From an uncultured Paraglaciecola sp. (GTDB lineage: Bacteria > Pseudomonadota > Gammaproteobacteria > Enterobacterales > Alteromonadaceae), in contig NZ_CAJWCF010000033.1 of the NCBI RefSeq assembly GCF_913020055.1, positions 1 through 41,167 on the forward strand: 41,167 nt of DNA, written 5' to 3'. Shown here piece after piece: positions 1,428-25,075 of the stretch (position 1 is its first letter; every line of letters starts with the position of its first letter). Under the pieces are notes generated by a model, which did no database searches, had not been told where the DNA came from, and was given only the letters and a program-made list of their open reading frames with translations. The translations under genes and the position numbers were made by a program.

Positions 1428-1695
1428 TTAAGGGCTATTGATCTTTCATATGTCACCGATATTTTCCTCAAAATGTGCTTAATCAAGGCGAAATCTGTGA
1501 AGTTTGGTCACCCAAATAAACAGGTTTCAACGCCGAGTAAGTGCGTTTTGAGGAAAACCCTCGGGCTGGGCCATTTATTCGCCTACCTTCGTTGTTTACC
1601 TCTCGTTTAGAATGACTAAACTTCAAGGCAAACGCCTCGGTATCCAAATAAATGACCTCAGTCTCGAGGACGTATGAAAGATCAACAGCCCCTAG
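1428..1695. mobile_element. MITE-like element, full-length copy 1 (268 bp)
   Basis: Aligns over its whole length with 24808-25075 at well over 90% identity by eye, with single-base indels near 1561 and 1626 that cancel. The ends are terminal inverted repeats of about 23 bases with core GGGGCTGTTGATCTTTCATA. The left end is decayed (TTAAGGGCTATTGATC) and the right end is intact, finishing CAGCCCCTAG at 1695. An internal imperfect inverted repeat pairs TTTTCCTCAAAATG (about 1461) with GTTTTGAGGAAAA (about 1545). A second arm, GTTTACCTCTCGTTTAG, has lost its perfect partner here. There is no transposase, so movement would require one from elsewhere. It fills the divergent gap between the DUF2177 gene and the glycosyltransferase. 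Confidence 0.88.
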
Positions 1696-1705
1696 AGGAG
1701 TAAGT

Positions 1706-2437
1706 TTGTTAACTATTGTTATTCCCACTTTGAATGAATCCAAATCAGGTTATCTAGCTAAGATCCTTAGTGCCTATAATGGCGTTGCAGGTATAGAAAT
1801 TATCTGTGTGGATGGTGGTAGTGCTGATGACACTGAATCGTTAATCAAGCAGTCAAAAGCCAAGTTAATTTGCACTGACATTTGTTCGAGGGCAGGTCGA
1901 TTGAATGAGGGTATCAAACAAGCCAAATTTGATATGGTGCTGCTTCATCACCCACGCAGTATTTTAGATGTTGAGGGGATTAAAGCCTTAACGAATGAAG
2001 CATCTAAAATACCCTGGGGGGCATTTACTCATCAGTTTAATATTCAACACTCATTGTTGAAATTTACTTCTTGGTATTCAAATCGAATACGCGGTGATAG
2101 ACGTGGGATCTATTATTTGGACCATTGCTTGTTTGCTCAAAAACAGTTGTTGTTTGATGTAGGGCTTATTCCAGAAATTGATATTTTCGAAGATACAGAA
2201 ATCTGCTTAAAGTTGAATAAGAAAGTTAAACCGATTAGGTTGCCATATATTAGTCAAACCTCTGCCATTAGGTTTCAAACTAATGGGGTATACAGTCAGG
2301 CACTTAAAAACCAAATTCTTAAATGTATGTACTACCTAAAGCGTTCTGACAAAGAGATGAACAAAACCTATGAACAGCAACTAGAGCTCAATAGCCACTA
2401 CCCAGATAACAAGGTAGCTAAAAAGCCACAAGATTAA
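1706..2437 (+). CDS. GT2-type glycosyltransferase
   Basis: Cytoplasmic family-2 glycosyltransferase of about 243 residues. It begins LTIVIPTLNES, the usual first strand and nucleotide loop, followed by CVDGGSADDTESLI with the nucleotide-binding aspartate. AGRLNEGIKQAKFDMVLLHH replaces the usual 'LD' donor-site block, and IFEDTEICLKL supplies the ED-type catalytic region. The acceptor is unknown; the fold resembles small GT2 enzymes that modify lipid or small-molecule acceptors. I chose the TTG at 1706 because AGGAG at 1696-1700 lies five bases upstream. The longer frame from ATG 1652 would make the first 15 or so residues out of MITE terminal sequence. The Shine-Dalgarno directly abuts the MITE's right end, so the insertion displaced the native promoter region. 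Confidence 0.82.
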   Translation: MLTIVIPTLNESKSGYLAKILSAYNGVAGIEIICVDGGSADDTESLIKQSKAKLICTDICSRAGRLNEGIKQAKFDMVLLHHPRSILDVEGIKALTNEASKIPWGAFTHQFNIQHSLLKFTSWYSNRIRGDRRGIYYLDHCLFAQKQLLFDVGLIPEIDIFEDTEICLKLNKKVKPIRLPYISQTSAIRFQTNGVYSQALKNQILKCMYYLKRSDKEMNKTYEQQLELNSHYPDNKVAKKPQD

Positions 2438-2702
2438 TTTAGCAATAATTCGTTTGTCAGTAGTCATTTCTAGTAGAGGGCTACCGGGCAGATTAAACTG
2501 TAATATTGTTATTTCGGCAAACATCCAAAATGAATTCGATTAGAATTAGGCCGACTCACTAATCAGTGGTGTATGGGCAACTGCAATGCAAAGGTGTTTA
2601 ATTTTTTATTACTAATAGAGTATTTATTGAGTATATTGCTCATAAATCGCCTTTGAAGACGAATTTTCCTCCTAATAAGTTAATAAGGATCGCATTCATT
2701 TC

Positions 2703-4580
2703 ATGTCAATCTTAAATCAAAGTCGGATGACCTTGTTATCAAGGTTGATGGCTGTCTTGATGTTTTTGGTTTGTGTAGCCGTTTTTATGCCTATTATTAT
2801 GCACTTTGGCAACGCATTAACGCCGGTAAAAAAATCAGCGGAAAATGGACAAGTATTCCTTCAATCGACAGATTTTTCTTCAGATAACAAAGTGGCTTTA
2901 TCTGATGGCTGGCTATTTTTTGAAAGTAAACTTGTTCAGCCTCAAGATGTGCAAAAGTTGCTCAATGAAGCGCGTATTGTTCGAGGTATAAGTGGCTGGC
3001 AGTTAACTGCCCAAGATGGTAACCAAGTGAATGGTTTTGGCACCTATCATATCACTGTCAACTTGCCACTTGATAAGCTCGATTTAGCCATACAAATCCC
3101 ACAAATTGAATCTGCTTATCGGCTGTATATTAATGACAATCTTGTGGCAACAGGTGGCGAAGTTTCAGAATCAAAGTCCACAGCCAAGCCCGGTTATAAC
3201 GCCAAGATTGTGTTAGTCCCGAATGAGCAAAATAGTTTCACGTTAACGTTGCAGGTTTCAAGCTACCACACTGCCTGGGGCGGATTGTGGTCGCCTGTTG
3301 TGATTGGTGCGGCGGACGAGATTTTTGCGACACAACGCGATTTAGTAGCACTTAGCATGTTTATTCTTGGGGTATTAACTATTACCGCCGCGTTTTACTT
3401 AATTCAATTTTACTTACGGCCTAATGAAAAACTTCCTTTGGTGTTTGGTTGTTTATGTATGTTGTTATTTCTTAAGGAATTTACGAACGAACATATGTTG
3501 TTTGTTTTACAGTTTTTAGGCATTAATTTTAGTATAGGTCTGAAAATAAATTATTTAACCTTCTACCTAGGCGTACCTACGCTGTTGTATTTTATGCAGC
3601 TTTGTTTCCCACAAACATTCAAAGCAAAAATCACTAGGGTGTGTTATCTGATTGCTGCGGTGTATTCGGTATTTGTTTTAGTTAGCCCAACACAGATAAT
3701 TGGTTATTCTCTGCTGAGTTATCAAATTTTTTGTTTAATAGTCACTCTTTATCTTATAACTTGTCTAGTCATTTCCAGTGTAAAAAAATTGCCAGCGGCA
3801 AAGATGATGATTCTTGGTTGCCTTATTCTGAGTATATTTGCCATAAACGATATTCTTTTTATGTTAGATGTTGTGTCTACTGGTCGCTTTTTTAGTTTAG
3901 GTATTGTGGGATTTATCATTTGCCAAGGTTATGTCATTAATAACCATTTTAACAACGTGCGAAGTCGCAATGAATCATTATCTTTGCAACTGCAACAACG
4001 TAACCTTGAGTTACAGGAGCTCGGAGCTGGCCTTGAAACAAAAGTCGAACAGCGCACCCAAGAGTTAGAACAAGTTAACCGCGAACTGCAGACGTTAGCC
4101 GAAGTTGATAAATTAACCGGGGCGCTTAATCGCCATGGATTGCAGAAATACTTACAAACTTCCTTTGAAAGACTGCGCCGCTCAGGTCAGCCAAGCAGTA
4201 TAGTGTTATTCGACTTTGATAATTTTAAGAACATTAATGACTCTTATGGACATGATAGCGGTGACAAAATATTAATGTCTGTGGTTAAAATAGTGAACGA
4301 TTTGATTCGAGAACAAGATAAAATAACAAGATGGGGGGGAGAAGAGTTTTTGCTGTTGTTACCTGATACTGAAATACAGGGCGCACTAGCCATCGCAGAA
4401 AAATTACGTTTGGCAGTGAGTGAACAACTGTCTAATACTGTCGCCCCTGAAGTACCCGTTACTATTACTGCTGGGGTGGCGCAATTTCAACAAGACGAAA
4501 TATTTGAGATACTGTTTAAACGAGCAGACAACGCGCTGTATAGGGGTAAACGTATGGGCCGCAACTGTATTCAGAGCTAA
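2703..4580 (+). CDS. 7TM-sensor diguanylate cyclase (7TMR-DISM + GGDEF)
   Basis: 625-residue inner-membrane signalling protein. In order: an N-terminal hydrophobic anchor (residues about 12-35); a periplasmic beta-rich sensor of the 7TMR-DISM extracellular type (about 45-200); a run of seven hydrophobic helices (about 210-415); a coiled coil rich in Q, E and L (about 418-458); and a C-terminal GGDEF domain starting at DKLTGALNRHGL. The active-site loop is GGEEF at about 545-549, compatible with cyclic-di-GMP synthesis from two GTP. An RxxD inhibitory site (REQD, about 536-539) sits at the normal spacing before it, so product inhibition is expected. Probably a ligand-sensing cyclase; the ligand is unknown. 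Transcribed alone, with about 265 bases of non-coding DNA upstream in which I see no clear structure. Confidence 0.9.
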   Translation: MSILNQSRMTLLSRLMAVLMFLVCVAVFMPIIMHFGNALTPVKKSAENGQVFLQSTDFSSDNKVALSDGWLFFESKLVQPQDVQKLLNEARIVRGISGWQLTAQDGNQVNGFGTYHITVNLPLDKLDLAIQIPQIESAYRLYINDNLVATGGEVSESKSTAKPGYNAKIVLVPNEQNSFTLTLQVSSYHTAWGGLWSPVVIGAADEIFATQRDLVALSMFILGVLTITAAFYLIQFYLRPNEKLPLVFGCLCMLLFLKEFTNEHMLFVLQFLGINFSIGLKINYLTFYLGVPTLLYFMQLCFPQTFKAKITRVCYLIAAVYSVFVLVSPTQIIGYSLLSYQIFCLIVTLYLITCLVISSVKKLPAAKMMILGCLILSIFAINDILFMLDVVSTGRFFSLGIVGFIICQGYVINNHFNNVRSRNESLSLQLQQRNLELQELGAGLETKVEQRTQELEQVNRELQTLAEVDKLTGALNRHGLQKYLQTSFERLRRSGQPSSIVLFDFDNFKNINDSYGHDSGDKILMSVVKIVNDLIREQDKITRWGGEEFLLLLPDTEIQGALAIAEKLRLAVSEQLSNTVAPEVPVTITAGVAQFQQDEIFEILFKRADNALYRGKRMGRNCIQS

Positions 4581-4606
4581 AGGCAATTTTTGATGCTTTA
4601 GCTGAA

Positions 4607-4981
4607 TTAGCCATTTAATAATTCTCTTAGTTTTTTTTCAGCTAGTTCTGCAGGTGTTAATCCTAGGTCGCTAGTATCGTCCTCTGGAATAGGATCACCA
4701 AATAGCTCAGCTAATTGAGCTTTTGCTTGAGCAGATTTTTGTTTATCAGTGGGTTTGAATTCGCCGTCACTGGGTTTGAAATAATCACAAAAGTTTGCAC
4801 GCTCAGTATCGCTTATATGTTCTGCTCTTTCTTCTTCACAACGGCCCCTGACATAGTACACACACATTTTGCACACATGTTGATCGGTACCACATTTATC
4901 GCACTCCTCACGCCGTGACATAGGCATAATGACGTCGACTAATGTGCTGTTACATTTCCAGCAAGAAAACTCATTAGACAT
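4607..4981 (-). CDS. zinc-ribbon protein of unknown function
   Basis: 124-residue soluble protein if started at ATG 4981, which follows AAGGGAC at good spacing; a longer frame reaches 5047 but has no better ribosome site and would overlap the VOC gene. It carries several cysteine pairs in the first 70 residues: CWKC, then CDKC about 25 residues later, CKMC, and further single cysteines in GRCEEE and ANFCDYF. This suggests one or two zinc-binding ribbons. The C-terminal half is charged and ends in a LTPAELAEKKLRELLNG helix. No catalytic motif is visible. It is the last gene of a short minus-strand unit (DUF4199, VOC, this gene), 14 bases after the VOC stop. The function is not recognisable. 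Confidence 0.82.
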   Translation of the reverse strand: MSNEFSCWKCNSTLVDVIMPMSRREECDKCGTDQHVCKMCVYYVRGRCEEERAEHISDTERANFCDYFKPSDGEFKPTDKQKSAQAKAQLAELFGDPIPEDDTSDLGLTPAELAEKKLRELLNG

Positions 4982-4995
4982 AGTGTTAAGTCCCT

Positions 4996-5331
4996 TTAAA
5001 ATTGATCGAACATAATGGAATTGCCGTCTGGATCTTTTAATACACAATGGGTTGGGCCAGATTCACCTTTAGTAGGGGTATCTATAGCAACGCCATTGTT
5101 TTTCAAGTGTTTCTCAATGGTTCTGACATCAGTTGGATTAAAGGTAAGGATATTGGACTCGAACATACCTTCAAATAAACCAATTACAGTGCTGTCTTTT
5201 TGCAAAATAAGCCATTTATCTTTGATTGAACCACACTCAGGGTGAGCTTTAAAACCTAAGGTTTCATAAAAGGCTTTTGATTTAGCGATATCTTTTACTG
5301 TAAGACTGACCGAAAACTGACCTAAATCCAC
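4996..5331 (-). CDS. VOC (glyoxalase/bleomycin-resistance fold) protein
   Basis: 111-residue single-domain VOC protein. It starts with FSVSLTVKDIAKSKAFYETLGF and ends with HCVLKDPDGNSIMFDQF, the paired beta-alpha-beta modules typical of the glyoxalase/dioxygenase superfamily. Metal-ligand positions cannot be fixed without alignment, so whether it is a lyase, isomerase, dioxygenase or binding protein is open. The start codon is GTG at 5331, preceded by AGGAG (AGGAGAGTAAC before the GTG). It sits 24 bases after the DUF4199 gene and 14 bases before the zinc-ribbon gene on the same strand, so the three likely share a transcript. Confidence 0.85.
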   Translation of the reverse strand: MDLGQFSVSLTVKDIAKSKAFYETLGFKAHPECGSIKDKWLILQKDSTVIGLFEGMFESNILTFNPTDVRTIEKHLKNNGVAIDTPTKGESGPTHCVLKDPDGNSIMFDQF

Positions 5332-5355
5332 GTTACTCTCCTAAAAAAATCGTTG

Positions 5356-5874
5356 TTATGTTCGAGGTGTACGAAGCAGTAATGCACTAATTAATGAAAA
5401 TAGAAATCCGATAGAAAAGACGGTAGCAAACATGACCATAGACTGAGTAAAGTTGTTACTCATTAAATCTGCGTAGTGGGCCAACTCCTTTAGCTGTTGC
5501 TCCATCACCATAGGTTCTAAGTTGCTTGAGCGAATTTTTTGTTCGGAATATTGCACGTAAGTAGCAGTAAATGTAGGGTTGATAAATTCTAAATAAAACC
5601 AATTATACAAAGCAAATATATGTGATGCGATCAAACTAATACCCAGCCCAACACCCAAAGCACCAACGAGGCCTAGAGGCGATGGGGCGCGTTTTTGCTT
5701 AAAGTCTTTTATACCCATAATCACCGCAAATGAGCTGATGATCATCATGCTGTATCCAACAATCTCACCTTTAGTGAAATTGTCTGGGTTAGTGCCTAAA
5801 ACTAAATGGGACACATAAAAACTAGTCACTAACGCTAGGCCATATATACAGCCAAAGTGAAGTATAGAGTTCAT
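5356..5874 (-). CDS. DUF4199 family membrane protein
   Basis: 172-residue protein with four hydrophobic helices: about residues 5-25, 38-56, 66-90 and 145-167. A polar segment of about 50 residues (FINPTFTATYVQYSEQKIRS and onward) separates helices three and four. This arrangement, with GYSMMIISSFAVIMGIKDF in helix two, matches DUF4199, a family of unknown function common in Bacteroidetes and marine gammaproteobacteria. It is the first gene of the minus-strand unit with the VOC and zinc-ribbon genes. No signal peptide cleavage site is evident; it is probably an inner-membrane protein. Confidence 0.8.
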   Translation of the reverse strand: MNSILHFGCIYGLALVTSFYVSHLVLGTNPDNFTKGEIVGYSMMIISSFAVIMGIKDFKQKRAPSPLGLVGALGVGLGISLIASHIFALYNWFYLEFINPTFTATYVQYSEQKIRSSNLEPMVMEQQLKELAHYADLMSNNFTQSMVMFATVFSIGFLFSLISALLLRTPRT

Positions 5875-5982
5875 TGGGTAATCATCCGAAATTTATTGAG
5901 ATACTTACTTTATGTTATTTATTCGAAAAATAAAATTTTCAGGGGAAAAACGGGTGAGAGTAACGTTTTGAACCACCAACAC

Positions 5983-6013
5983 TGAAAAAGAGACTTCATT
6001 CCTGAAGTCTCTT
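5983..6013 (-). terminator. Rho-independent terminator of amtB
   Basis: An 11-bp perfect stem (AAGAGACTTCA / TGAAGTCTCTT, 5988-5998 with 6003-6013, loop TTCC). Read on the minus strand it is followed by a run of T's and lies 16 bases after the amtB stop. It fits termination of the glnK-amtB transcript before the DUF4199 gene. Confidence 0.85.
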
Positions 6014-6028
6014 GAATGCTTAATTAAG

Positions 6029-7237
6029 TTAGTCGTGATTAACCGAACCAATACTATGAATACTCAAATCGGCGCCTTTAAACTCCTCTTCTTCAGTGAG
6101 TCGAATGGCGGTCACTTTACTGACAAGACCATACACAAGCACACCACCTACTAGCGCAACAAGTATACCTGCAACGGTACCTATTAATTGTGCGGTGAAA
6201 GATACGCCGCCCAATCCACCTAGCGACTCAAGACCAAATATACCAGCGGCAATTCCGCCCCAAGCGCCACATACGCCATGTAATGGCCAGACACCCAATA
6301 CGTCATCAATTTTCTTGGTTTGCTGCATAATGGTAAACAGTTTGACAAAAATCCAACCGGCTATGAGTCCTACAAACAATGAACCTATGGGATGCATTAC
6401 ATCTGAACCCGCACACACCGCGACTAAACCTGCCAGTGGTCCATTATGAATAAAACCAGGGTCATTTTTGCCGAACCACAACGCTGCTAAAATACCGCCA
6501 ACCATCGCCATCAGTGAATTCATTGCGACTAATCCGCTTATTCCGTCCATGCTTTGTGCGGACATAACATTAAAGCCGAACCAACCAATACATAGGATCC
6601 AAGTACCTAAGGCCAAAAAGGGGATGTTGGAAGGAGCGAAGGCAATCAGTCTGTTGTCTTTTTCGCGGCCTTTACGTAAACCCAAGAAATATACGGCAAC
6701 TAAGGCTAACCACCCACCCATTCCGTGTACTACAACAGAGCCAGCAAAGTCATGGAAACTGGCGCCTGTGGTTTTTTCTAGCCATGCTTGAAAGCCATAG
6801 TTGCCGTTCCAAATAATCCCTTCAAAGAAGGGATATACCACTGCAACAATCAACGCTGATGCAATTAAGAATGGATAAAATTTGGCTCTTTCAGCAATAC
6901 CTCCTGAGATGATGGCTGGGATGGCTGCAGCGAAAGTCATTAGAAAAAAGAATTTCACTAAATCATAACCATTATTGGACGCTAGCTCTTGTGCGGAGCT
7001 AAAAAAGGTAACGTCGTATGCTATCCAATAACCCACGAAAAAATAGGCGATACATGACACTGCAAAGTCAGTGATAATTTTGACCAGCGCATTCACTTGG
7101 TTTTTGTGCCTAACGGTGCCCACTTCTAAAAAGGCAAATCCTGCATGCATGGCAAACACCATGATCGCACCTATGAGTAAAAAGTAGGTGTTGGAGCTTT
7201 GCACCAATGTTTCAACGGCGCTGTTAATATCTTGCAT
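6029..7237 (-). CDS. amtB: ammonium transporter AmtB
   Basis: 402-residue Amt/Rh family channel of the inner membrane, which moves ammonium into the cell. About eleven hydrophobic helices are visible. Diagnostic blocks are DFAGSVVVHGMGGW with pore histidine about 171, and GVWPLHGVCGAWGG with the second pore histidine about 320, giving the twin-His motif. FAFLEVGTVR and AAIPAIISGGIAER are also family blocks. There is no cleavable leader and the protein begins close to the first helix, shorter at the N-terminus than E. coli AmtB. It lies 61 bases downstream of glnK on the same strand, the classical pairing in which trimeric GlnK blocks the cytoplasmic pore when nitrogen is plentiful. Confidence 0.96.
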   Translation of the reverse strand: MQDINSAVETLVQSSNTYFLLIGAIMVFAMHAGFAFLEVGTVRHKNQVNALVKIITDFAVSCIAYFFVGYWIAYDVTFFSSAQELASNNGYDLVKFFFLMTFAAAIPAIISGGIAERAKFYPFLIASALIVAVVYPFFEGIIWNGNYGFQAWLEKTTGASFHDFAGSVVVHGMGGWLALVAVYFLGLRKGREKDNRLIAFAPSNIPFLALGTWILCIGWFGFNVMSAQSMDGISGLVAMNSLMAMVGGILAALWFGKNDPGFIHNGPLAGLVAVCAGSDVMHPIGSLFVGLIAGWIFVKLFTIMQQTKKIDDVLGVWPLHGVCGAWGGIAAGIFGLESLGGLGGVSFTAQLIGTVAGILVALVGGVLVYGLVSKVTAIRLTEEEEFKGADLSIHSIGSVNHD

Positions 7238-7298
7238 TTTGACTCTCAGTTTAAAATTAGAATTATGCTAGGGAAATTTGTGGTTAACAGGTTATCTG

Positions 7299-7673
<375 letters not shown>

Positions 7674-7929
7674 TTACAGAAGCTTGAGGAGCAGGCGAGG
7701 AGAGTCTTTAGAACTAAACATGATAATTAAGTCTATTTTTTTAACGCTTGATTAACATTTGCTGAATGCCTATCGCTGAGTGTATTTTTGCTGACGTCTT
7801 TTCATATCTTGATTTTCTTTTATCCGAACGTATAAACCACACTGGTCAAGATAGACTGTCACTAGAGTACGTGGAATAATTGCCGCGTATTGATAATGGC
7901 GTTACAAAATAAAGGTCAAATAAAAATAG

Positions 7930-8427: not shown

Positions 8428-8431
8428 TCCT

Positions 8432-8611
8432 ATGGCAAACAGTGATAAATCAGGTATCTATCAGTCACCTTTAAGTAAACTGTTTGCCCGGCAACAACCC
8501 AAAGTAAAAGCCAAAAAGGGTATGGCTAACTTGTTGCTTGTTTATGCAGAAAATGACAGTGAGCGAATTGCGCTTTTACTTAAAAAGTGGATTGAGGAAG
8601 AAACTCAATAA
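8432..8611 (+). CDS. 59-residue conserved-looking protein downstream of the LspA paralogue
   Basis: Starts at ATG 8432, four bases after the lspA-like stop. A longer frame from 8372 would overlap the peptidase gene and is less likely. The protein has a polar, basic N-terminal half (LFARQQPKVKAKKG) and a C-terminal amphipathic helix (SERIALLLKKWIEEE). No signal peptide or lipobox is present, so it is not itself a lipoprotein substrate. It ends nine bases before the convergent HopJ-family gene. I do not recognise the family. Confidence 0.65.
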   Translation: MANSDKSGIYQSPLSKLFARQQPKVKAKKGMANLLLVYAENDSERIALLLKKWIEEETQ

Positions 8612-8620
8612 CCTCATTAT

Positions 8621-13499: not shown

Positions 13500-15338
13500 T
13501 TAAGACTTGGGAGTTCTACCGGCTTGTTTACGTAAGTTTTCAGTTAATAACTTCTTACGAATACGTGTACTGATAGGAGTTACTTCAACCAATTCATCAT
13601 TATCGATGAATTCAAGTGCTTGTTCTAACGACATAACAATGGGCGGAACCAAGCTTTGTGCTTCGTCTGTACCTGATGCACGTACGTTAGTTAATTGCTT
13701 ACCTTTAAGGGCGTTAACCGTTAAGTCATTTTCACGGGTGTGAATACCGATAACCATGCCTTCATATATTTCAACACCGTGGCCGATAAATAAACGTCCA
13801 CGTCCTTGTAAGTTAAACAATGCGTTAGTCAGTGCTTTACCAGTTGCGTTAGCAATCAATACACCGTTCTTACGCTGGCCGATTTCTCCGCCTTTGTGGG
13901 GTCCGTAATGATCGAAGGTGTGGTACATCAATCCAGAGCCAGACGTCATAGTCATAAAGTCTGTTTGGAAACCAATTAAGCCACGGCTAGGGATCATAAA
14001 GTCCATACGAATACGGCCTTTACCATCTGGCGACATATTAGTTAATTCACCTTTACGTGTACCAATCTGTTCCATGATAGAACCTTGATGCTGTTCTTCA
14101 ACATCTATGGTCACAGTTTCGAAAGGTTCATGAGTCACACCATCAACTTGCTTCAAAATAACTTCTGGGCGAGAAACGGCTAGTTCGTATCCTTCTCGGC
14201 GCATATTTTCAATCAATATGCCTAAGTGAAGTTCACCACGACCTGATACACGGAACTTGTCCGGATCTTGCGTTTCTTCGACTTTCAGCGCCACATTGTG
14301 GATTAATTCTGTTTGCAATCGTTCATAGATGTTACGTGATGTGACGTATTTACCTTCTTTACCACAGAACGGTGAATTATTGACTTGAAAGGTCATGGTC
14401 ACCGTTGGTTCATCAACAGAAAGAGGCGGTAATGCCACAACTGTATTTGGATCACAAATAGTATCGGAGATCTTAAGTTCACCCACACCTGTTACTGCAA
14501 CAATGTCACCCGCGTCACCAGAATCTACTTCTAGGCGCTGTAGCCCTAAATAACCTTGCACTTGACCAACTTTAGCGTTGCGAGTTTTGCCATCAGCGCC
14601 AATTATCGTCACTTGTTGATTAGGTCTAACCGAACCACTGGTAATACGACCAATGCCGATTACTCCCACGTAAGAGTTGTAATCAAGTTGCGAAATTTGC
14701 ATTTGTAATGGGCCGTGCATATCGGCAACCGGCGGCTTAACATGTTTTATGATTGTTTCAAACAAAGGCGTCATGTTATCGCTAGGTACATCCAAGTCGT
14801 TAGTTGCCCAACCATTTATGGCTGATGCGTAAACGACTTCAAAATCGAGTTGGTCGTCAGTTGCGCCTAAATTATCGAATAAATCAAAGACTTGATCCAT
14901 AACCCAGCTAGGACGAGCGCCCGGCTTATCAATTTTGTTGATAACAACGATTGGTTTCAAACCTTGAGCAAAGGCTTTTTGTGTCACAAAACGTGTTTGT
15001 GGCATAGGGCCTTCTTGTGCATCAACCAATAACAATACTGAATCGGCCATAGACATAACACGCTCTACTTCACCACCGAAATCGGCGTGACCAGGAGTAT
15101 CTACTATATTGATGCGGAATTCGTTCCATTTAATTGCAGTGTTTTTCGCAAGAATGGTAATACCACGTTCTTTTTCAATATCGTTTGAGTCCATCACACG
15201 TTCTTCGGCTACGCCGCGGCTTTCTAAGGTGCCAGACTGTTGTAATAACTTATCAACTAGGGTGGTTTTGCCGTGGTCAACGTGGGCTATAATAGCTATA
15301 TTCCTCAAATTTTCGATTGAGGTATTGGGTGAACTCAT
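13500..15338 (-). CDS. typA: translational GTPase TypA/BipA, copy 1
   Basis: 612-residue ribosome-associated GTPase used in ribosome assembly and in stress and low-temperature growth. GTPase motifs are intact: AHVDHGKTT (G1), ERGIT (G2), DTPGHADF (G3) and NKID (G4). They are followed by EF-G-like domains and a TypA-specific C-terminus ending in [12 protein letters not shown]. The start at 15338 is fixed by an in-frame TAA just upstream and AGAGAG before the ATG. It is a near-identical neighbour of copy 2 (15692-17536), differing mainly by scattered substitutions and two single-residue length differences (LESRG against LEESRG, and the segment before DPDKF). Copy 1 keeps its own terminator and a -10-like promoter, but a MITE remnant lies in its leader. 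Both copies look functional. Confidence 0.96.
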
Positions 15339-15379: not shown

Positions 15380-15437
15380 CTAGGGGCTGTTGATCTTTCA
15401 TATATCCTCGACGACTTATGAAAAACCAACAGCCCCT
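15380..15437. mobile_element. MITE remnant: two terminal inverted repeats with little between
   Basis: 58-bp internally deleted relative of the 268-bp elements. The left end reads CTAGGGGCTGTTGATCTTTC; the right end is ATGAAAAACCAACAGCCCCT, with about a dozen bases (around CCTCGACGAC) left between them. It sits 41 bases upstream of the typA copy 1 start and downstream of its -10 box. In typA copy 2 the matching leader (CACTTAAGAC then TACTCGCTAAAG) is continuous, giving an unoccupied site. As RNA the element would fold into a stem of nearly 20 bp in the typA leader. Confidence 0.85.
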
Positions 15438-15691: not shown

Positions 15692-17536
15692 TTACCCTTT
15701 AGACGGACGTCCAGCTTGCTTACGCAGGTTTTCAGTCAATAACTTTTTGCGAAGGCGTATGCTGACAGGTGTCACTTCAACCAATTCATCATTGTCGATG
15801 AATTCAAGAGCTTGTTCTAACGTCATAACAATCGGTGGCACTAAGCTTTGCGCTTCGTCGGTACCTGATGAACGTACGTTAGTTAATTGCTTACCTTTTA
15901 GGGCGTTAACGGTTAAGTCATTTTCACGAGCATGAATACCAATAATCATGCCTTCGTATACTTCAAGACCGTGGCCGATAAATAAACGTCCGCGACTTTG
16001 TAAATTAAACAAGGCGTTAGTCAGTGCTTTACCGGTTGCGTTGGCAATCAATACACCATTTTTACGCTGACCAATTACACCACCTTTGTGTGGGCCGTAA
16101 TGATCAAACGTGTGGTACATCAAACCAGATCCTGAGGTCATGGTCATAAAGTCAGTTTGGAAACCAATCAAGCCACGGCTAGGGATCATGAAGTCCATAC
16201 GTATACGGCCTTTACCATCTGGTGCCATATTGGTTAACTCACCTTTACGTGTACCCAACTGCTCCATTACGGAGCCTTGATGTTCTTCTTCCACATCAAT
16301 AGTCACTGACTCGTAAGGTTCGTGTGTCGCACCATCAACGTCTTTTAAAATCACTTCTGGGCGAGAAACGGCTAGTTCGTAGCCTTCACGGCGCATGTTT
16401 TCAATCAAGATGCCTAAGTGAAGTTCACCACGACCTGATACGCGGAATTTATCCGGGTCAGTAGGTATTTCTTCAACTTTCAGTGCCACGTTGTGGATCA
16501 GCTCGTGTTGCAAACGCTCAAGGATATTACGTGACGTAACAAACTTACCTTCTTTACCTGCAAAAGGAGAGTTATTAACTTGGAATGTCATGGTGACTGT
16601 TGGTTCATCAACAGATAGAGGCGGTAACGCTACCACTGTTGCCGGGTCACACACTGTATCTGAGATTTTAAGTTGGCCAACACCAGTAATTGCAACAATA
16701 TCACCCGCGTCAGCAGAATCAACTTCGTGACGTTCTAAACCTAAGTAACCTTGTACTTGTCCAATTTTACCATTACGCGTGTTACCGTCAGCACCAATAA
16801 TAGTCACTGCTTGGTTAGGCTTAACTGAACCACTAGTAATACGACCTATACCAATTACACCTACATAAGAGTTGTAATCAAGTTGCGAAATTTGCATTTG
16901 TAATGGGCTGTTCATGTCGGCAGCTGGTGGCTTAACGTGTTTGATGATTGTTTCAAACAAAGGCGTCATGCTATCGCTTTCTACTTCTAAATCGTTGGTA
17001 GCCCAACCATTTATGGCTGATGCGTAGACTACTTCAAAATCGAGTTGATCGTCAGTTGCGCCTAAGTTATCGAACAAATCAAATACTTGATCCATAACCC
17101 AATCAGGACGTGCACCTGGCTTATCAATTTTGTTGATAACAACGATTGGTTTCAAACCTTGAGCAAAGGCTTTTTGTGTCACAAAACGTGTTTGTGGCAT
17201 AGGGCCTTCTTGTGCATCAACCAATAACAATACTGAATCGGCCATAGACATAACACGCTCTACTTCACCACCGAAATCGGCGTGCCCAGGAGTGTCAACT
17301 ATATTGATGCGGAATTCATTCCATTTAATTGCCGTGTTTTTTGCAAGAATGGTAATGCCACGCTCTTTTTCGATGTCGTTTGAGTCCATCACACGTTCTT
17401 CGGCTTCGCCGCGACTTTCTTCTAATGTACCCGATTGTTGTAACAACTTATCAACTAGGGTGGTTTTGCCGTGGTCAACGTGGGCTATAATAGCTATATT
17501 CCTCAAGTTTTCGATTGAGGTGTTTGATGAACTCAT
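15692..17536 (-). CDS. typA: translational GTPase TypA/BipA, copy 2
   Basis: 614-residue TypA with the same intact GTPase motifs and C-terminal domains as copy 1. The frame extends to an ATG at 17563, but that start would add MCGPNREKT from the conserved leader. I use ATG 17536 by homology to copy 1, where an in-frame stop excludes a longer start. It carries an extra glutamate in LEESRG near switch I, which E. coli TypA lacks, and PTDPDKF where copy 1 has QDPDKF. It is divergent from glnA, with 422 bases between the start codons that hold both control regions. Its leader lacks the MITE remnant and so represents the ancestral arrangement. Which copy is the more active cannot be judged from sequence. 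Confidence 0.95.
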
Positions 17537-17630
17537 TGTCTTTTCTCTGTTAGGGCCGCACATGCGTCACTTAAGACCATTACTCGCTAAAGTAACACGC
17601 AGCTTAGTTACTGAAATTTTATGGGCGCGG

Positions 17631-17882: not shown

Positions 17883-17958
17883 TTATATAGGCAAGTTTTA
17901 GAATTTGGAGTGAGTTGACTCCGACTAATATATTTATACTTTTAATCTGGAGGACACC

Positions 17959-19368: not shown

Positions 19369-19418
19369 TATTTCAAGCTTTTAGCTGGCTATCTCGGATA
19401 GTTATTAAAATAAATAAC

Positions 19419-19445
19419 AAGCCCGCATTTGCGGGCTTTTTTTTA
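19419..19445 (+). terminator. Rho-independent terminator after glnA
   Basis: GCCCGC (19421-19426), short loop, GCGGGC (19431-19436), then eight T's. It lies 50 bases past the glnA stop and should uncouple most glnA transcription from ntrBC, leaving ntrBC on read-through or on its own promoter. Confidence 0.92.
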
Positions 19446-19520
19446 GCTGTAATAAGGCTACACTTGATTTTACTGGTTCAGCGGCAATCGTGCCGATGAT
19501 TTTTGGAGTGAAAACGAACA

Positions 19521-20048
19521 ATGAAATTCAGCGCTGTTATTTGTTTATTGTTTCTGTGCATTAGTGTGTCAGCACAAGTGGTTTACAAAACGGTAAAGGC
19601 TGATGGCACTGCGGTTTACAGTGATGTTCGTAGCGATGGTGCTGTGCCGGTTAGCTTATCATCAATGAATAATGTTGTTGTACCTGCGTTAAATAATGCT
19701 TCAAGCCAGCCGAATAGTAAAAATAATCCAACAAAAAAATTAAAGCCTGAAGTGCAATATCTAGTGTCCATTCGTTCTCCGCAAGCTGAGCAAACATTGC
19801 GTGATAATTCTGGTTTAGTCACTATTAATGCGGATGTTTTACCTAAAAAGGCCGGTAAGTTTCAATTAGTCTTTGATAATCAAGTAGTTAAAACCCAATC
19901 AAATGGGCAGTTTAAGCTGGAAAGTGTCAATCGAGGCGCTCATTCCATTCAAATTCATTTTCTCGACAACTCAGGCAAGATCCTTGCATCGTCTAAGTTG
20001 CAGACCTTTTATCTGCAAAAAGCTTCTGCTCTGATCAATGTCAACTAG
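19521..20048 (+). CDS. DUF4124 domain secreted protein
   Basis: 175-residue exported protein. A signal peptide (MKFSAVICLLFLCISVSA) precedes the DUF4124 motif VVYKTVKADGTAVYSD at about residues 20-35. A low-complexity linker rich in N, S and K follows, then a beta-rich C-terminal region (GKFQLVFDNQVVKTQSNGQF). DUF4124 proteins between glnA and ntrB are a recurrent arrangement in gammaproteobacteria, but their role is unknown. The position suggests nitrogen-linked expression, by inference only. It lies after the glnA terminator and before the ntrB control site. Confidence 0.88.
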   Translation: MKFSAVICLLFLCISVSAQVVYKTVKADGTAVYSDVRSDGAVPVSLSSMNNVVVPALNNASSQPNSKNNPTKKLKPEVQYLVSIRSPQAEQTLRDNSGLVTINADVLPKKAGKFQLVFDNQVVKTQSNGQFKLESVNRGAHSIQIHFLDNSGKILASSKLQTFYLQKASALINVN

Positions 20049-20108
20049 TACTAAATAAGCATATTGTATAAAAATTAGTATCTATATCTAAGCAGCTAAA
20101 TAATACTT

Positions 20109-20125
20109 TGCACCATATGGGTGCG
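20109..20125 (+). promoter_or_regulatory. NtrC-binding dyad before ntrB (autoregulation)
   Basis: TGCACC, ATATG, GGTGCG: 16 of 17 positions agree with an ideal NtrC dyad if the five spacer bases are ignored. It lies 14 bases before the chosen ntrB start. In E. coli a comparable site at glnLp lets NtrC-phosphate repress ntrB-ntrC, so negative autoregulation is the likely role. A TTGTATAAAA stretch upstream, near 20065, may be part of the promoter. Confidence 0.8.
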
Positions 20126-20139
20126 TGAATGTTGAGTTT

Positions 20140-21219
20140 ATGTCTGAGTCTGTTACTACTGAAAATTTATTAGATAACCTGTCAACTGCTGTGCTTGTGT
20201 TGGATGACAACATGATCCTGCAATATGCTAATCATGCGGCACAAGCTGTATTTGAGCGTAGTTTAAATTTGTTAATCGGTTATTCATTCAATCAGTTTAT
20301 TGCATCTTCGAGTCTTGATTTTGTGCGTTTTCAAAATTCCATGCAACATGGCGAAGTGTATTCTGATGGAGAAGTTACCTTTAAATTCACTGATGGTAGA
20401 CATACGCAGGCTGATGTCTCAGTGACCAGAATGTTGGAAGACCAAAATAAACGATTATTGCTCGAAATTAGATTGGTAGAACAACAGAAAAAAATAAGCC
20501 AAGAAAATCACCAATGGGCTCAACAACAGGCCGCTCGAGAGCTTGTACGTGGATTAGCCCACGAAATTAAGAACCCTTTGGGCGGTATCAGAGGGGCAGC
20601 ACAACTGCTTGCTAAACAATTGCCCAGCGAGGAATTACAAGAATTTACCCAAGTTATTATCGAACAATCCGACAGGTTAACTAATTTAGTTGATCGTTTG
20701 TTGGGACCAAATTTACGGCCAAATTTTGATTGGCAAAATATACACAAGGTACTCGAAAAAGTGTGTACTTTGGTGCAACTGGATCCAAGCCATAATATTC
20801 TCATTACAAGGGATTATGACCCGAGCATTCCAGATATATATCTGGACCAGGATATGTTGCAGCAAGCCACATTGAATATAGTGCGAAATAGTGTGCAAGT
20901 GTTATCAGACAATCGAGAAATCGCCGGTGAAATAACCATTGTCACTAGAATAGAGCGCCAAGTAATTATTCACGGGGCGTCTTTTCCGCTTTGTGTAAAA
21001 ATTCAAATTATCGACAACGGACCTGGTATACCTAGCGAACTTAAAAACACACTTTTTTACCCAATGGTTACTAGCAAAAAAGAGGGCAGTGGTTTGGGGT
21101 TATCGATATCTCAAACATTGATTGGTCATCATCGAGGAAAAATTGAAGTTGATAGTTGGCCAGGCAGAACAGAATTTACATTATATTTACCGATTGATAA
21201 AAAGGATCCCCAGAAATGA
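20140..21219 (+). CDS. ntrB: nitrogen sensor histidine kinase NtrB (NRII)
   Basis: 359 residues from ATG 20140; a GTG at 20125 would start inside the NtrC dyad and is less likely. Soluble, with no membrane helix. A PAS domain (about residues 10-110) is followed by the H-box LVRGLAHEIKNPLGGIRGA, with phosphorylated histidine at about 141. The ATPase lobe has an N-box (QATLNIVRNSVQVL), DNGPGIP and GSGLGLSIS. It phosphorylates NtrC when PII is uridylylated and dephosphorylates it when PII is free. Its stop overlaps the ntrC ATG in an ATGA junction, so the pair is translationally coupled. Also called glnL. Confidence 0.96.
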   Translation: MSESVTTENLLDNLSTAVLVLDDNMILQYANHAAQAVFERSLNLLIGYSFNQFIASSSLDFVRFQNSMQHGEVYSDGEVTFKFTDGRHTQADVSVTRMLEDQNKRLLLEIRLVEQQKKISQENHQWAQQQAARELVRGLAHEIKNPLGGIRGAAQLLAKQLPSEELQEFTQVIIEQSDRLTNLVDRLLGPNLRPNFDWQNIHKVLEKVCTLVQLDPSHNILITRDYDPSIPDIYLDQDMLQQATLNIVRNSVQVLSDNREIAGEITIVTRIERQVIIHGASFPLCVKIQIIDNGPGIPSELKNTLFYPMVTSKKEGSGLGLSISQTLIGHHRGKIEVDSWPGRTEFTLYLPIDKKDPQK

Positions 21220-22622
21220 GTGCAGAACCTGTATGGATAGTAGATGACGACAGCTCGATTCGCTGGGTATTACAAAAAGCATTACAGGCGGCAAATATAC
21301 CTTGCTTCAGTTTTGAAAACCCTGAAGATTTATTATTACAATTAGAAACCGGACAACCACCTGAGGTGATAGTGTCGGATATTCGTATGCCACAAATGGA
21401 TGGTATGGTTTTATTGGGTGAAGTGCATAAACGTTTTGAAAACATCCCTGTGATCATTATGACGGCACACTCTGATTTAGACAGTGCGGTAAATGCTTAT
21501 CAAAGTGGTGCATTTGAATACCTACCCAAACCTTTCGATATTGATGAAGCTGTAAATTTGGTACAACGAGCCTTAACTCACTCACGGGAACAGTCTAGTA
21601 AAAACCAACCACCTGAACTGGTCAAGGCGACCGAAATTATTGGTGAAGCACCAGCCATGCAAGAGGTATTTAGGGCCGTTGGACGTCTGTCTCGTTCTAG
21701 TATCAGTGTCTTGATTAATGGTCAGTCTGGTACAGGTAAAGAATTGGTGGCCCATGCGTTACATCGTCACAGCCCTCGCTCGAACAATACGTTTATTGCT
21801 CTGAACATGGCTGCAATACCGGCAGATTTGATTGAGTCTGAATTATTTGGTCATGAAAAAGGTGCATTTACGGGTGCTCAAGCGGCAAGACAAGGACGAT
21901 TTGAACAAGCTAATGGCGGCACATTATTTTTAGATGAAATAGGTGACATGCCACTAGATGTACAAACTAGATTGTTACGAGTTTTAGCTGACGGACAATT
22001 CTACCGAGTTGGCGGGCATAACCCGGTGACAGTCGATGTCAGAATTATTGCTGCAACTCACCAAAATCTGGAACTACGTGTGTCCGAAGGTAAATTTAGA
22101 GAGGATTTGTATCACAGATTAAATGTTATACGTATTCATATCCCCACACTCAGCGAAAGGCGTGAAGATATTCCCTTATTAGCCGGACATTTTTTACAGA
22201 AAGCCGCAGCAGAACTCGCTGTAGAGGTTAAATCTCTTAGCAAAGAAACCAAAAAAATTCTATCTAACTTACCTTGGCCAGGGAATGTACGTCAGCTGGA
22301 GAATATGTGTCGTTGGTTAACGGTAATGGCTAGCGGTCAAGAAGTATTGCCTCACGACTTACCACCAGAAATTCACCAACAACCTGTATCAATCGACAAA
22401 ACGGCGACAACAGGTGATTGGCAAACGCTACTTGCTAACTGGGCAGATACGCAGTTGCAATCTGGGCATAACAATATCTTAGATGATGCGATTATGAGTT
22501 TTGAAAGGATTTTGTTAGAGCGTGCTTTACACTACACTCATGGACACAAACAAGATGCGGCTAAACGTTTAGGTTGGGGCAGAAATACCCTTACCAGAAA
22601 GTTAAAAGAGTTAAATATGTAG
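21216..22622 (+). CDS. ntrC: nitrogen response regulator NtrC (NRI), sigma-54 activator
   Basis: 468-residue enhancer-binding protein. The receiver domain (1-120) has phospho-acceptor aspartate about 55 ([11 protein letters not shown]) and KPFD. The AAA+ domain (about 140-375) carries Walker A GQSGTGKE at 169-176, the sigma-54-contacting GAFTGA loop at 216-221, and [10 protein letters not shown] as Walker B. The C-terminal Fis-type helix-turn-helix is [19 protein letters not shown]. Length and order match E. coli NtrC (469). It should bind the dyads before glnA and ntrB. Also called glnG. It ends eight bases before a convergent gene, with no obvious terminator between. Confidence 0.97.
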
Positions 22623-22629
22623 CTGGCTG

Positions 22630-23430
22630 TCAATGTGATTTAGGTTGGGCAAGGTTTTCCAAGCCGTATTTTTTCAGTAATGCTAGATAACGCCCATCAT
22701 TGTGCATTTGAGTAATACAGCTATCTAAGGAAGTAAGAAACCCAGTAGTGTCAGTGATATTTTTGCTGTTTTTAGAAACTGTAACAAAGTAGTCTCTAAA
22801 AGAGACAGTAAATTTAGGGACTTTTATCTTATCGGCAACCCCCAAGGTTTTTGCTCGCCAATAAAATGTTTGTTTGCTATTAGGCATAATATCAAATCTA
22901 GGGTTACTACTTAATAACTGGGCAAACATAGCGTCAATACTATGTCCTTCGCTAATTTCACCTACAAGACGTTTCTTGTCTATCAATGCTAAAAGTTCAG
23001 GGGTGTAGGTTAAACCTGCCAAATGTCCAATTATTAGAGGGTGTAAATCCTCAATTTTATGAATATCTACCTTGCTGTCTGCGCGCATGGCAAAACCGTA
23101 TTCAGTGGTAAATATGGGCACTTTGCCATATACCACGAATGCCTCACGCTCCTTTTTATAACTATATAGACTAATGTCCAACTCGCCACTTTGCATATAT
23201 AGATGAGTTCGTTTGATTGGCAGTTTGCTGTAGGTGAGTGTGAAATTTTTCTTAGGCAAACATTCATTTAACACATCTTTTCCTAAACCAGATAAATTGT
23301 GTTTAGATTCAGAGAAGAGATAGGGAGGCCAATCAATATCATTTAATACTAGTTTATTGGCATAGACTAAGGGTGCAAGAACCCATAATATTAAGAATAA
23401 TAATATGTTAAGTGAGTAATTTTTTTTCAT
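22630..23430 (-). CDS. periplasmic solute-binding-like protein (SBP family 3)
   Basis: 266 residues. An N-terminal signal peptide (LNILLFLILWVLAPLVYA) is followed by VLNDIDWPPYLFSESKHNLS, typical of the first strand of the amino-acid-binding family-3 fold. LSGLGKDVLNECL and GELDISLYSYKKEREAFVVY are further family landmarks. There are no permease or ATPase genes beside it, so it is an orphan binding protein, a common type in Alteromonadales and Shewanella. It may serve a sensor or be a remnant of a transporter. It is convergent with ntrC and 107 bases downstream of the HD-GYP gene on the same strand. Confidence 0.85.
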   Translation of the reverse strand: MKKNYSLNILLFLILWVLAPLVYANKLVLNDIDWPPYLFSESKHNLSGLGKDVLNECLPKKNFTLTYSKLPIKRTHLYMQSGELDISLYSYKKEREAFVVYGKVPIFTTEYGFAMRADSKVDIHKIEDLHPLIIGHLAGLTYTPELLALIDKKRLVGEISEGHSIDAMFAQLLSSNPRFDIMPNSKQTFYWRAKTLGVADKIKVPKFTVSFRDYFVTVSKNSKNITDTTGFLTSLDSCITQMHNDGRYLALLKKYGLENLAQPKSH

Positions 23431-23537
23431 AGGACTAGAGTATTATCAACACAGTGTCTATAACGTATAACATTATGTTTCTACATTTGACAGTTATGCA
23501 ATAAGGTTAATGGTGAATTTTTGGGTTTCATACTTAA

Positions 23538-24689
23538 TTATTTAGCACGCTCGTTCGTCAGCAGTGCTGCCATACCGCTATTAAATGCTTGCATCCATTT
23601 ACTTGAAAATTGCCCTTTGGCGATACGATTAATTTCGATTACGGCTTTTTTCTTGGGTCGTTGTAAATGACTCTGATGTGCTCGAGCATGGGTGATAGCG
23701 TCAAAGGTGTCTAGTATGGCAAGTAATTTTGCACCTTCACAAATATCGTCTTCTTTGAGTCCCAGAGGGTAACCACTACCATCAATGCGCTCGTGATGCT
23801 GCATTACAATTTTACGTGCTTCATTCCATTGATTTAGATTTTCCAGCAAACGAGCACTTTTATATACATGGGAGCGCATCAGATTAAACTCGACTTCTTC
23901 TAGTTTTTCTTGTTTATGCAGTACAGCAACGGGCATAAAAGCCATGCCAAAATCATGCATATAACAGGCAACGGCAAGCTGGACTTCATTTACTGGGGAA
24001 CCGGCTATTTTATTGATGTAACCCGCTAACTTAGCAATGCGATCACCTCTACCTTCCCAATACATTGAACGTTTTTCTATAGGCTTCATCAATTCTCTGA
24101 AAAAGACCAAGTCTTCGCGTTCTTCATTGTTGATTGTCTTTGGTATACCCGTTGTTGCTATACTGACGGGTGCTTCAGATGACGGAGTTTCACCTTCTTG
24201 CTCGTACTCTTGGCCTAAATCAAGACTGGGATCAAGCAACAATACTGCTTTGGCTAACAATTGTTCATGCTGAGCGCTGTTTTCTGGTGTGATGCGTTTA
24301 ATGGCGATTACCAGTTGCTCAAACAACTCTTTATCATATTCCGCTTGCCCAGTTTGAATACAACTTTGAACGAAGACTTTGACTTTATCCATTATCAATA
24401 ACACCAGATCACTCATATTACTGGTGTATTTAATTTGTCCCTTACGTAAATAATCGAGTAAGTCTTCGGCATACTGTAAAAGAGGGATGAGAGGTGAAAA
24501 GTTAACTAAGCCTAAGTCACCTTTGATGGTGTGGATTGAGCGAAATAATGAACGTTGTAATTCGTTGTCTTCTGGCTTCAATTCCAATTCAATTAAGGTT
24601 TGCTCGCTGGCTTCATATAGTTCGTTAATTTCTTCCAATAAGTCGGTGAGAATATCTTCATCGAGATCTTCATGTTTAAACGTTTGCAT
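23538..24689 (-). CDS. Hpt / HD-GYP domain signalling protein
   Basis: 383 residues, soluble. The first 130 residues are a histidine phosphotransfer (Hpt) domain with SIHTIKGDLGLV, phospho-histidine about 53. After an acidic linker comes an HD-GYP phosphodiesterase domain (about 195-370): YMHDFGMAF with the HD pair at 245-246, SHVYKSARLLE, QHHERIDGSGYPLG with the GYP loop at about 304-308, and DTFDAITHARAHQ. The metal-binding residues I can locate are kept, so cyclic-di-GMP hydrolysis is plausible. Hpt in front suggests that a phosphorelay controls it. No kinase or receiver gene is adjacent. Its start lies about 118 bases from MITE copy 2. Confidence 0.88.
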   Translation of the reverse strand: MQTFKHEDLDEDILTDLLEEINELYEASEQTLIELELKPEDNELQRSLFRSIHTIKGDLGLVNFSPLIPLLQYAEDLLDYLRKGQIKYTSNMSDLVLLIMDKVKVFVQSCIQTGQAEYDKELFEQLVIAIKRITPENSAQHEQLLAKAVLLLDPSLDLGQEYEQEGETPSSEAPVSIATTGIPKTINNEEREDLVFFRELMKPIEKRSMYWEGRGDRIAKLAGYINKIAGSPVNEVQLAVACYMHDFGMAFMPVAVLHKQEKLEEVEFNLMRSHVYKSARLLENLNQWNEARKIVMQHHERIDGSGYPLGLKEDDICEGAKLLAILDTFDAITHARAHQSHLQRPKKKAVIEINRIAKGQFSSKWMQAFNSGMAALLTNERAK

Positions 24690-24807
24690 AGGATGAGTAG
24701 CCTTAATAATTGAAAGTGCTTTGTGCTTGGTTAAGTATCGGCTAATTAGAATTTTTATTCATTTATTTGTGCCGAAACAGAAAACGTTAAAATATATCTA
24801 ATAAATG

Positions 24808-25075
24808 CTAGGGGCCGTTAATCTTTCATATGTCACCGAGATTTTCCTCAAAATGTGCTTGATCAAGGCGAAATCTGTGAAGTTTGGTCACCCAAACAAA
24901 CAGGTTTCAACGCCGAGTAAGTGCGTTTTGAGGAAAACCCTTCGGGCTGGGCCATTTATTCGCCTACCTTCGTTGTTTACCTCTCGTTTAGAATGACTAA
25001 ACGAGAGGTAAACGCCTCGGTATCCAAATAAATGACCTCAGTCTCGAGGAAGTATGAAAGATCAACAGCCCCTAG
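24808..25075. mobile_element. MITE-like element, full-length copy 2 (268 bp)
   Basis: Begins CTAGGGGCCGTTAATCTTTC and ends with the inverted partner, GAAAGATCAACAGCCCCTAG. The outer CTAG at each side may be a 4-bp target duplication (YTAR type) or part of the repeat. Inside is a perfect 17-bp hairpin arm, GTTTACCTCTCGTTTAG, five bases, then its complement at about 24974-25012. A second imperfect arm pairs TTTTCCTCAAAATGTGCTT with AAGTGCGTTTTGAGGAAAA. This copy keeps arm two intact, whereas copy 1 has lost it. No transposase gene. It fills most of the 456-base gap between the HD-GYP and plsC genes; the rest shows nothing further. Confidence 0.9.

Follow-up and report, generated by a model that had tools for sequence, protein, structure and literature searches.

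The window analysed here is a 41,167-nt stretch from an uncultured Paraglaciecola sp. (positions 1 to 41,167 of contig NZ_CAJWCF010000033.1, assembly GCF_913020055.1), and it carries three related elements between genes. Copy 1 is flanked by two divergent genes, one encoding a DUF2177 membrane protein and the other a family-2 glycosyltransferase. The neighbours of copy 2, an HD/Hpt gene and an acyltransferase gene, are divergent too, and a short copy sits between tandem TypA/BipA genes (13500-15338 and 15692-17563). An earlier inspection of the letters alone (the sequence-only reading) had described them as non-autonomous elements resembling miniature inverted-repeat transposable elements (MITEs), with IS5-type ends and nested hairpins. 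Our analysis indicates that they are very probably MITEs moved in trans by an ISSpu10-like transposase of the IS5 family of insertion sequences (ISs), with a modular hairpin interior whose fold looks kept and which would be bound by a protein. The window features are the following:

1428..1430, left flank of copy 1, TTA (YTA)
1431..1692, + strand, MITE copy 1, complete, two modules, AGGGCTATTGATC...GATCAACAGCCCC
1476..1541, + strand, copy 1 hairpin module, arm A (first), found by covariance models R1, R2 and R3
1558..1565, copy 1 central small-hairpin site, CCC-TC-GGG (copy 2 has one base more), read from the sequence
1581..1647, - strand, copy 1 hairpin module, arm B (second, opposite orientation), found by covariance search
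1693-1695, right flank of copy 1, TAG
15383..15436, + strand, short form, module-free, terminal inverted repeats nearly back to back, flanks CTA (left) and TTT (right)
24811..25072, + strand, MITE copy 2, complete, two modules, CTA...TAG flanks
24856..24921, + strand, copy 2 hairpin module, arm A, found by covariance search
24938..24946, copy 2 central small hairpin, CCC-TTC-GGG, read from the sequence and the fold
24962..25027, - strand, copy 2 hairpin module, arm B, found by the broader models and unlisted by the narrow R1 at E<=1
24975..25013, copy 2 perfect 17-bp inverted repeat with a 5-nt loop, 24975-24991 pairing with 24997-25013

The two 268-bp copies were present where they had been placed, as was the short one, and the full copies (1431-1692 and 24811-25072) share 95% identity. 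A 20-nt end pattern gave six matches in the window at up to 3 mismatches, against a mean of 0.01 in shuffled sequence. The stretch 15380-15437, previously taken for an end-only remnant, actually carries an end on each side and measures 54 bp between the outer limits of its GGGG and CCCC; the short copy (15383-15436) is a complete, two-ended small form. No open reading frame (ORF) of at least 100 aa lies within the window copies, one beginning in copy 1 and extending out of it.

As had been proposed, the window copies fold as single strands far better than their shuffles (z = -12.4 for the copy at 24808 as DNA, z = -13.0 for that at 1428 as RNA); the central small hairpin of copy 1 is absent from the predicted best fold. 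The 17-bp hairpin arm ascribed to the full copies proved perfect in the 24808 copy only, copy 1 having no perfect arm. When this stem was searched by script in 25 same-genus loci, 15 were matched, 14 of them with the imperfect tract TTCAAGGC or a variant, and GAGAGGT was found in the 24808 copy only. A degenerate copy from another species, overlooked by the script (L056), has its own perfect 16-bp stem. Judged by these letters, the replacement of the right-side tract in copy 2 looks like quasipalindrome correction.

Dispersal in the source genome and its relatives

The source genome (G000) is a draft of 4.6 Mb in 185 contigs, 92.31% complete. A 271-bp query gave 23 matches in it, 7 of them spanning at least 258 bases, and the 19-nt end gave 35 hits at up to 3 mismatches (reversed control 0). 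The genome-wide search suggested by the sequence-only reading hence yielded further copies, dispersed at unrelated sites as expected of a MITE. Several partial matches terminate at contig ends, in line with an assembly that breaks in repeats.

The 268-bp sequence had matches in 10 of 60 relatives (source genome included), all of the same genus, of which the set includes 21 more members. Among these ten, G005 and G013 gave a single short match each, at E ~6e-4, possibly an end alone or chance. The exact 19-nt end occurred in 74 stretches of Gammaproteobacteria, with hosts including Thalassotalea, Colwellia, Shewanella, Providencia, Paraglaciecola arctica and metagenome-assembled genomes (MAGs) of Kangiellaceae, Chromatiales and others. 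An inverted partner was located within 4 kb in 57 of the 74, with recurring spacings of 33, 48-57, 72-84, 105, 136-140, 158-166 and 253-276 bp. A looser end pattern had hits in all 23 genomes searched (2 to 56 each; reversed control at most 2), and the whole MITE had no match among plasmids and phages.

Three observations concern individual hosts. Providencia alcalifaciens BIGb0506 (L113/G078) had 26+29 loose-pattern hits, second among the 23 genomes, and similar sequence varies among other Providencia genomes. At 604-733 (minus strand) of a Candidatus Colwellia aromaticivorans locus (L161), a group II intron (RF02012, E 1.5e-15) seems to interrupt one such element, which has a MITE end at 899-917. 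Finally, a reading frame (ATGAAAGATAAACAGCCCC...) downstream of a lone element end, seen by eye at ~1501-1519 of L037 (G000:C30:28993-29011), seems to take its ATG and initial codons from that end.

An intact IS5-family element shares the ends

The sequence-only reading had proposed looking for an IS with the same termini, and one was found in another genome of the same genus (G021). L087:668-1519, reached through a same-genus pattern search in which the locus was the right end of the IS, is an intact 852-bp IS5-family element laid out as CTA, GGGGTTGTTGATCTTTGTT, a 249-aa ORF, GTGAAAGATCAACAGCCCC and TAG, and its core ends match those of the MITEs at 15/16 and 16/16 positions. The transposase scored 280.4 bits against the NCBIfam IS5 model NF033580 (cut-off 110) and has the Pfam domains DDE_Tnp_1 (PF01609) and PF13340. 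The best relative among plasmids, also of 852 bp, was located in Marinomonas algicola (L228); its transposase is 86% identical in protein, its 16-nt core is complete at both ends with CTA/TAG flanks, and the two elements are identical at 697/852 positions. The gene table, which is incomplete, has no entry beneath this match. Transposases annotated as ISSpu10 are 69% identical to the L087 protein and have the same end type.

MITE and IS align at the ends only, over 16-18 bp, apart from one 10-bp match (E 0.5). The MITE interior is therefore not a deleted IS interior. The statement that no transposase is present holds for the copies; in the source genome none was found at E<=1e-20, although a draft may have missed it. 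The parent, said not to be identifiable from the sequence, was found elsewhere. At E<=1e-20, transposase matches occurred in 4 of 27 genomes, intact in G021 and broken or partial in G062, G063 and G070. Among the matches listed for 23 genomes, no end pairs at IS spacing were seen by eye, and four stretches of viral contigs fitted the transposase peptide pattern, none of them confirmed. An IS630/TA parent, weighed for the TA flanks, was discarded after the IS5 parent was found.

Target site and flanks

YTAR is the target type of IS5-type transposases. The flanks of 80 distinct complete elements showed TA on the left in 57, on the right in 58 and on both sides in 42, with Y before and R after the TA in 40 of these 42. 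This agreed with the likeness of the outer CTAG to IS5-type targets that had been noted earlier, the flanks being mostly YTA...TAR. The CTAG that had been described as frequent is not constant, copy 1 having TTA on its left and the short copy TTT on its right. A 4-bp duplication that includes the element's first base fitted 10/80, and flank shuffling is uninformative on duplication because the TA is nearly fixed. When the 74 pattern loci were compared all-vs-all, 8 pairs had 446-1,930 bp in common (65-86% identity); inspected short of a base-by-base reading, they showed no filled/empty pair.

We have considered that the elements might be a REP/REPIN- or ERIC-like family with an unrelated mover (RAYT or other), their likeness to IS5 ends being coincidental. 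The existence of very short palindromic forms (29-58 bp) and the lack of the IS5 transposase in many genomes would suit such a family. However, REP/REPIN hairpins, which go with a RAYT tyrosine transposase, adjoin a fixed tetranucleotide (GTAG/GGAG), and the flanks here vary, are mostly YTA...TAR and show no fixed GTAG tag. Together with an end identity of 16-18 bp and CTA/TAG flanks on intact IS5 elements from two organisms, this renders a REP- or ERIC-like origin highly improbable. The ends, the copies and the parent IS support the earlier description of the elements as MITE-like and non-autonomous, with ends of the IS5 type.

The interior is built from a hairpin module

Each long arm is a hairpin module of ~66 nt. 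In arms picked with a motif filter and set in a common orientation, the outer stem is followed by CAAGGC, the inner stem and a tip (for example GTTTAG-TCATT-CTAAAC), after which come the returning inner stem, AACG and the other side of the outer stem. Elements longer than 200 bp from several genera mostly folded into a terminal stem, a long arm, a tiny GC hairpin and another long arm; other folds were obtained, e.g., for the Providencia, L085 and L115 copies.

Modules were searched with covariance model R1, for which 14 same-genus arm-A sequences were used, and with the broader models R2 and R3. R1 matched arm B in several of the same elements, as well as arms from Shewanella, Thalassotalea, Colwelliaceae and the MAG OFTM106 (28 rows at E<0.001, kept out of 34; the six uncounted rows, E 0.12-0.95, comprised three opposite-strand echoes and three elsewhere). 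R1 missed some arms, such as arm B in copy 2 of the window and those of the 159-bp class, which R2/R3 recovered.

Module number was counted in 79 distinct elements from 98 loci fetched by their ends, by MITE similarity or, for 2 of them, by flanking DNA or transposase, never by the module (the unselected set). All 17 elements of 28-110 bp and the only one of 181-240 bp had no module. Among those of 111-180 bp, 25/30 had one and 5 none, and among those of 241-300 bp, 26/31 had two, 4 had one and 1 had none. The two modules faced each other head-to-head in 26/26 pairs, and 85/97 R3 hits fell inside two-ended elements. Adding 34 module-fetched two-ended loci gave 109 elements, with corresponding counts of 17/17, 26/31 and 50/57 and 52/52 pairs head-to-head. 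The share of R3 hits inside elements then became 147/160, a figure inflated by the entry of only the 34 two-ended stretches out of 40 module-fetched ones; of the 13 hits outside, 10 were in one-ended elements. Those 40 module hits from seven genomes, hand-picked from a listing rather than random, comprised 34 two-ended elements of this type, 2 with one end and 4 with neither.

The training hits of R3 came from 56 loci, many of which were also counted. In pattern-found loci outside that training (50 loci, 35 elements), the smallest size class had no module in 13/13 elements and the next had one in 14/19, and of three large elements two had two modules and one had none. Thus, the MITE interior consists of zero, one or two ~66-nt modules, with pairs facing each other, usually across a tiny GC hairpin. 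The nested hairpins of the sequence-only reading were seen, and they are really copies of one modular unit that also lives in other-ended elements.

Conservation of the fold and of its internal loop

Most module examples stem from models that favour the CRMGGC/AAC loop. The occurrence of a plain pattern, C[AG][AC]GGC-N30-46-AAC, in elements found by their ends is fairer evidence for the loop than the model-found sets. This pattern was present in 1.48 strands per element of 241-300 bp (n=31), against 0.08 in dinucleotide shuffles, and in 0.73 strands per element of 111-180 bp (n=30), against 0.03.

Base-pair counts, made in alignments fitted to the model structure, showed compensated changes in the stems. 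In a first set, 20 of 21 pairs were changed on both sides, with 259 such cells against 88.8 in shuffles and a covariation score of 0.657 (0.234 shuffled, at most 0.224 slid). A broader set gave 507 doubly changed cells against 178.4 and a covariation of 0.734 (0.231 shuffled, at most 0.249 slid), its number of doubly changed pairs being reached by 7/500 shuffles. A third set of 59 rows comprised elements with mostly other ends, 49 of the rows belonging to 31 loci outside the training; here the counts were 395 against 139.6 and the covariation 0.762 against 0.218 shuffled.

The middle of the inner stem was almost without sequence information in 27 representatives sharing less than 75% identity. 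In these same sequences the bases of GGC were kept in 26, 25 and 26 of 27, and those of AAC in 26, 27 and 26 of 27. Among 23 representatives outside the training, each base of AAC was kept in 23/23, those of GGC in 22, 22 and 23, and the full CRMGGC in 20/23. Taken together, the module looks as if kept as a folded single strand, with compensated stems and with a CRMGGC/AAC internal loop and closing pair that vary little.

These data also bear on the possibility that the elements are ordinary MITEs whose hairpins have no function and arose as a side effect when sequence was duplicated in inverted form and repaired by template switching. Instability and frequent correction are typical of long inverted repeats; the 24808 tract has become the exact complement of the one it pairs with, the change that quasipalindrome correction would make, and L056 carries another perfect stem. 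However, the interior is unlike the parent IS except at the ends, and the module is also found in other-ended elements of other family groups. Template-switch repair would erase mismatches and therefore cannot alone explain the kept mismatched loop, which in end-chosen elements occurs at least 18-fold above shuffles and is among the most conserved columns in the 27 and 23 diverse representatives. We thus regard a by-product origin of the hairpins as unlikely.

The module occurs in elements with other ends

R3 at E<=1e-6 had matches in 18 of 143 genomes of the class (source genome included), from 17 family groups, and none in 125; these counts are lower bounds, at most 36 candidates having been scored per genome with stricter filters. 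R2 matched 17 of 18 chosen genomes. In 38 module-bearing stretches (18 given as loci, 20 hand-picked, three in the source genome), the flanking inverted repeat scored at least 14 in 29 and below that in 9, scores that stand without a shuffled control, and the module was mostly accompanied by other ends.

Grouped by eye, these stretches showed about eight kinds of ends. One, GGGCGTGTTGATCTTTC, is near that of the window elements and was found only in G022. Others were GGGCCTGTTAACACT and its variants, AGAGCCTATCCGTGAATAAAT, AGAACCTATCTCA and TTACTAAGCCGAACC, with GGAACCTCTGATTGGAACGA and TATAGTCAATTAAA seen at single loci. The source genome itself has the last kind, TATACCCATACCACCTCAAAAT, with the same module, at L353, L354 and L355 (G000 contigs C111, C108 and C57). 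Beyond this grouping, two further kinds, TAACCTGAACTCGGGATAA and ATACCAATTTGATTAA, were recognised by eye. A second kind of MITE, with TAACCTGAACTCGGGATAA-like ends (L066, L071, L074 and L077 in G015; L280 in G003), has one recognised module. Seven other-ended elements, when folded, again gave the two-arm plan, R3 seeing the second module in only some such loci. By their letters, the GGG-CTGTT kinds seem to grade into one another, and the other kinds do not.

These observations lead us to put forward, tentatively, that the module is a selected part, acting as a single strand, for many unrelated MITE families. As a structured cassette it may have passed between, or outlived, different termini and transposases throughout Gammaproteobacteria, and would most likely recruit a widely conserved host protein to the CRMGGC/AAC loop.

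Genomic setting

Of the 79 distinct elements, 70 lie between genes and 1 within an ORF call, a neighbour being missing on one side for the remaining 8; the coding fraction of the element loci is 0.81. The neighbouring genes, taken from a crude ORF call on which these statistics rest, were convergent in 13 cases, tandem in 35 and divergent in 22, against a background of 71, 192 and 82. Since this orientation is unbiased, nothing indicates a terminator or promoter role.

The setting is relevant to the idea that the module is a cis-acting RNA element, i.e., an mRNA processing or stability hairpin like the RNase III/RNase E sites of Correia and ERIC. The strong RNA fold (z -13.0) and the insertions in short intergenic gaps would be compatible with it, as would the RNA processing at Correia and ERIC elements described in the review PMC10969869. 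Against it, the elements have no preferred orientation with respect to genes, and two opposed modules read alike on both strands. No family of Rfam 15 matched the window, and the same search of 14 fetched loci gave no match in the elements. We therefore consider a cis-acting RNA role rather doubtful.

Some side observations were made at these loci. The longest glycosyltransferase ORF (1652-2437) begins inside MITE copy 1, and its true start probably lies downstream of that copy. The two TypA/BipA genes flanking the short copy share 87% DNA identity, and G001, G004, G017, G019 and G020 also have two copies. In Colwellia chukchiensis (L171, 6885-7073), a lysine riboswitch lies near an element and outside it.

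Proposed mechanism

Mobilisation of the MITEs by the IS5 parent is favoured because of the matching ends on an intact IS, the multiplicity of copies and the flank pattern. An ISSpu10-like IS5-family transposase made elsewhere would recognise the GGGGCTGTTGATCTTTC ends and insert the MITEs at YTAR sites, with the central TA most likely duplicated on insertion. The folded module might arise as a DNA cruciform, on single-stranded DNA during replication or in read-through RNA, and some protein may bind it, aiding the persistence or spread of the element.

Several observations weigh against this mobilisation and protein-binding model. No transposase was found in the source genome (draft, 185 contigs, 92.31% complete) at E<=1e-20, nor in 23 of the 27 genomes at that threshold, leaving current mobility unsupported. 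At the same-genus and Providencia sites in relatives, the element is absent and the sequence too diverged for base counting, and the short copy site, GACTA[..]TTTTAC against GACTATTTAC in relatives, is one base less than a full duplication. R2 found no module in G067, though its loci carry 159-bp elements, and the plain loop pattern is missing from both strands in 12 of 61 end-found elements (4/31 of 241-300 bp, 8/30 of 111-180 bp). In the third set, from other families, 44/500 shuffles reached the number of doubly changed pairs and the inner helix pairs in just 72.6% of cells. The fitting of the covariation alignments to the model structure counts in the same direction, as does the unbiased gene orientation. 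Loop conservation in the model-found sets is partly ascertainment, the model rewarding the loop. Moreover, template-switch correction of inverted repeats can also yield compensated stems, and the 24808 copy displays an event of this kind.

Significance and comparison with known systems

MITE interiors are usually taken as filler in decay. In the present elements the interior is a modular fold whose unpaired loop has changed little; it is counted zero, one or two times per element and is common to about eight kinds of ends as grouped by eye. Whether functional parts belong to non-autonomous elements themselves can now be tested. The covariance model could name many unannotated repeats of Gammaproteobacteria, and the MITE family of the window gains a named parent IS. 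Searches of open-licence literature, which took in passages of PMC10969869 and PMC4853749, gave no description of these elements.

Among known systems, the ISSpu10-like elements of the IS5 family share the end type (GGGCTTGTTGATCTTTC left, CAAAGATCAACAGGCCC right) and the CTAG flanks, with a transposase 69% identical to that of the parent; the window elements differ in having no gene and an interior unrelated to the IS. RUP of Streptococcus pneumoniae is a MITE mobilised by IS630-Spn1 at TA. The likeness lies in a small non-autonomous element whose ends match a host transposon with a TA target, although the IS family is another, and we know of no conserved multi-copy structural module in RUP. 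BOX of the same species is built as boxA-boxB(n)-boxC with tandem units; it is likewise modular, and the number of its internal units varies. Its sequence and host are different, and the modules described here face each other and occur with several other ends.

The ends of ERIC and Correia differ from those of the window elements. Both are, like the latter, intergenic palindromic MITEs with foldable transcripts (PMC10969869, in part), whereas here the size classes track the module number. Integron attC sites, which are marked by RYYYAAC/GTTRRRY boxes and served by an integrase, were considered as a further comparison. Set beside these systems, the window elements constitute a new MITE family, modular in build and with an ISSpu10-like IS5 parent, whose interior is a widespread, structurally conserved hairpin.

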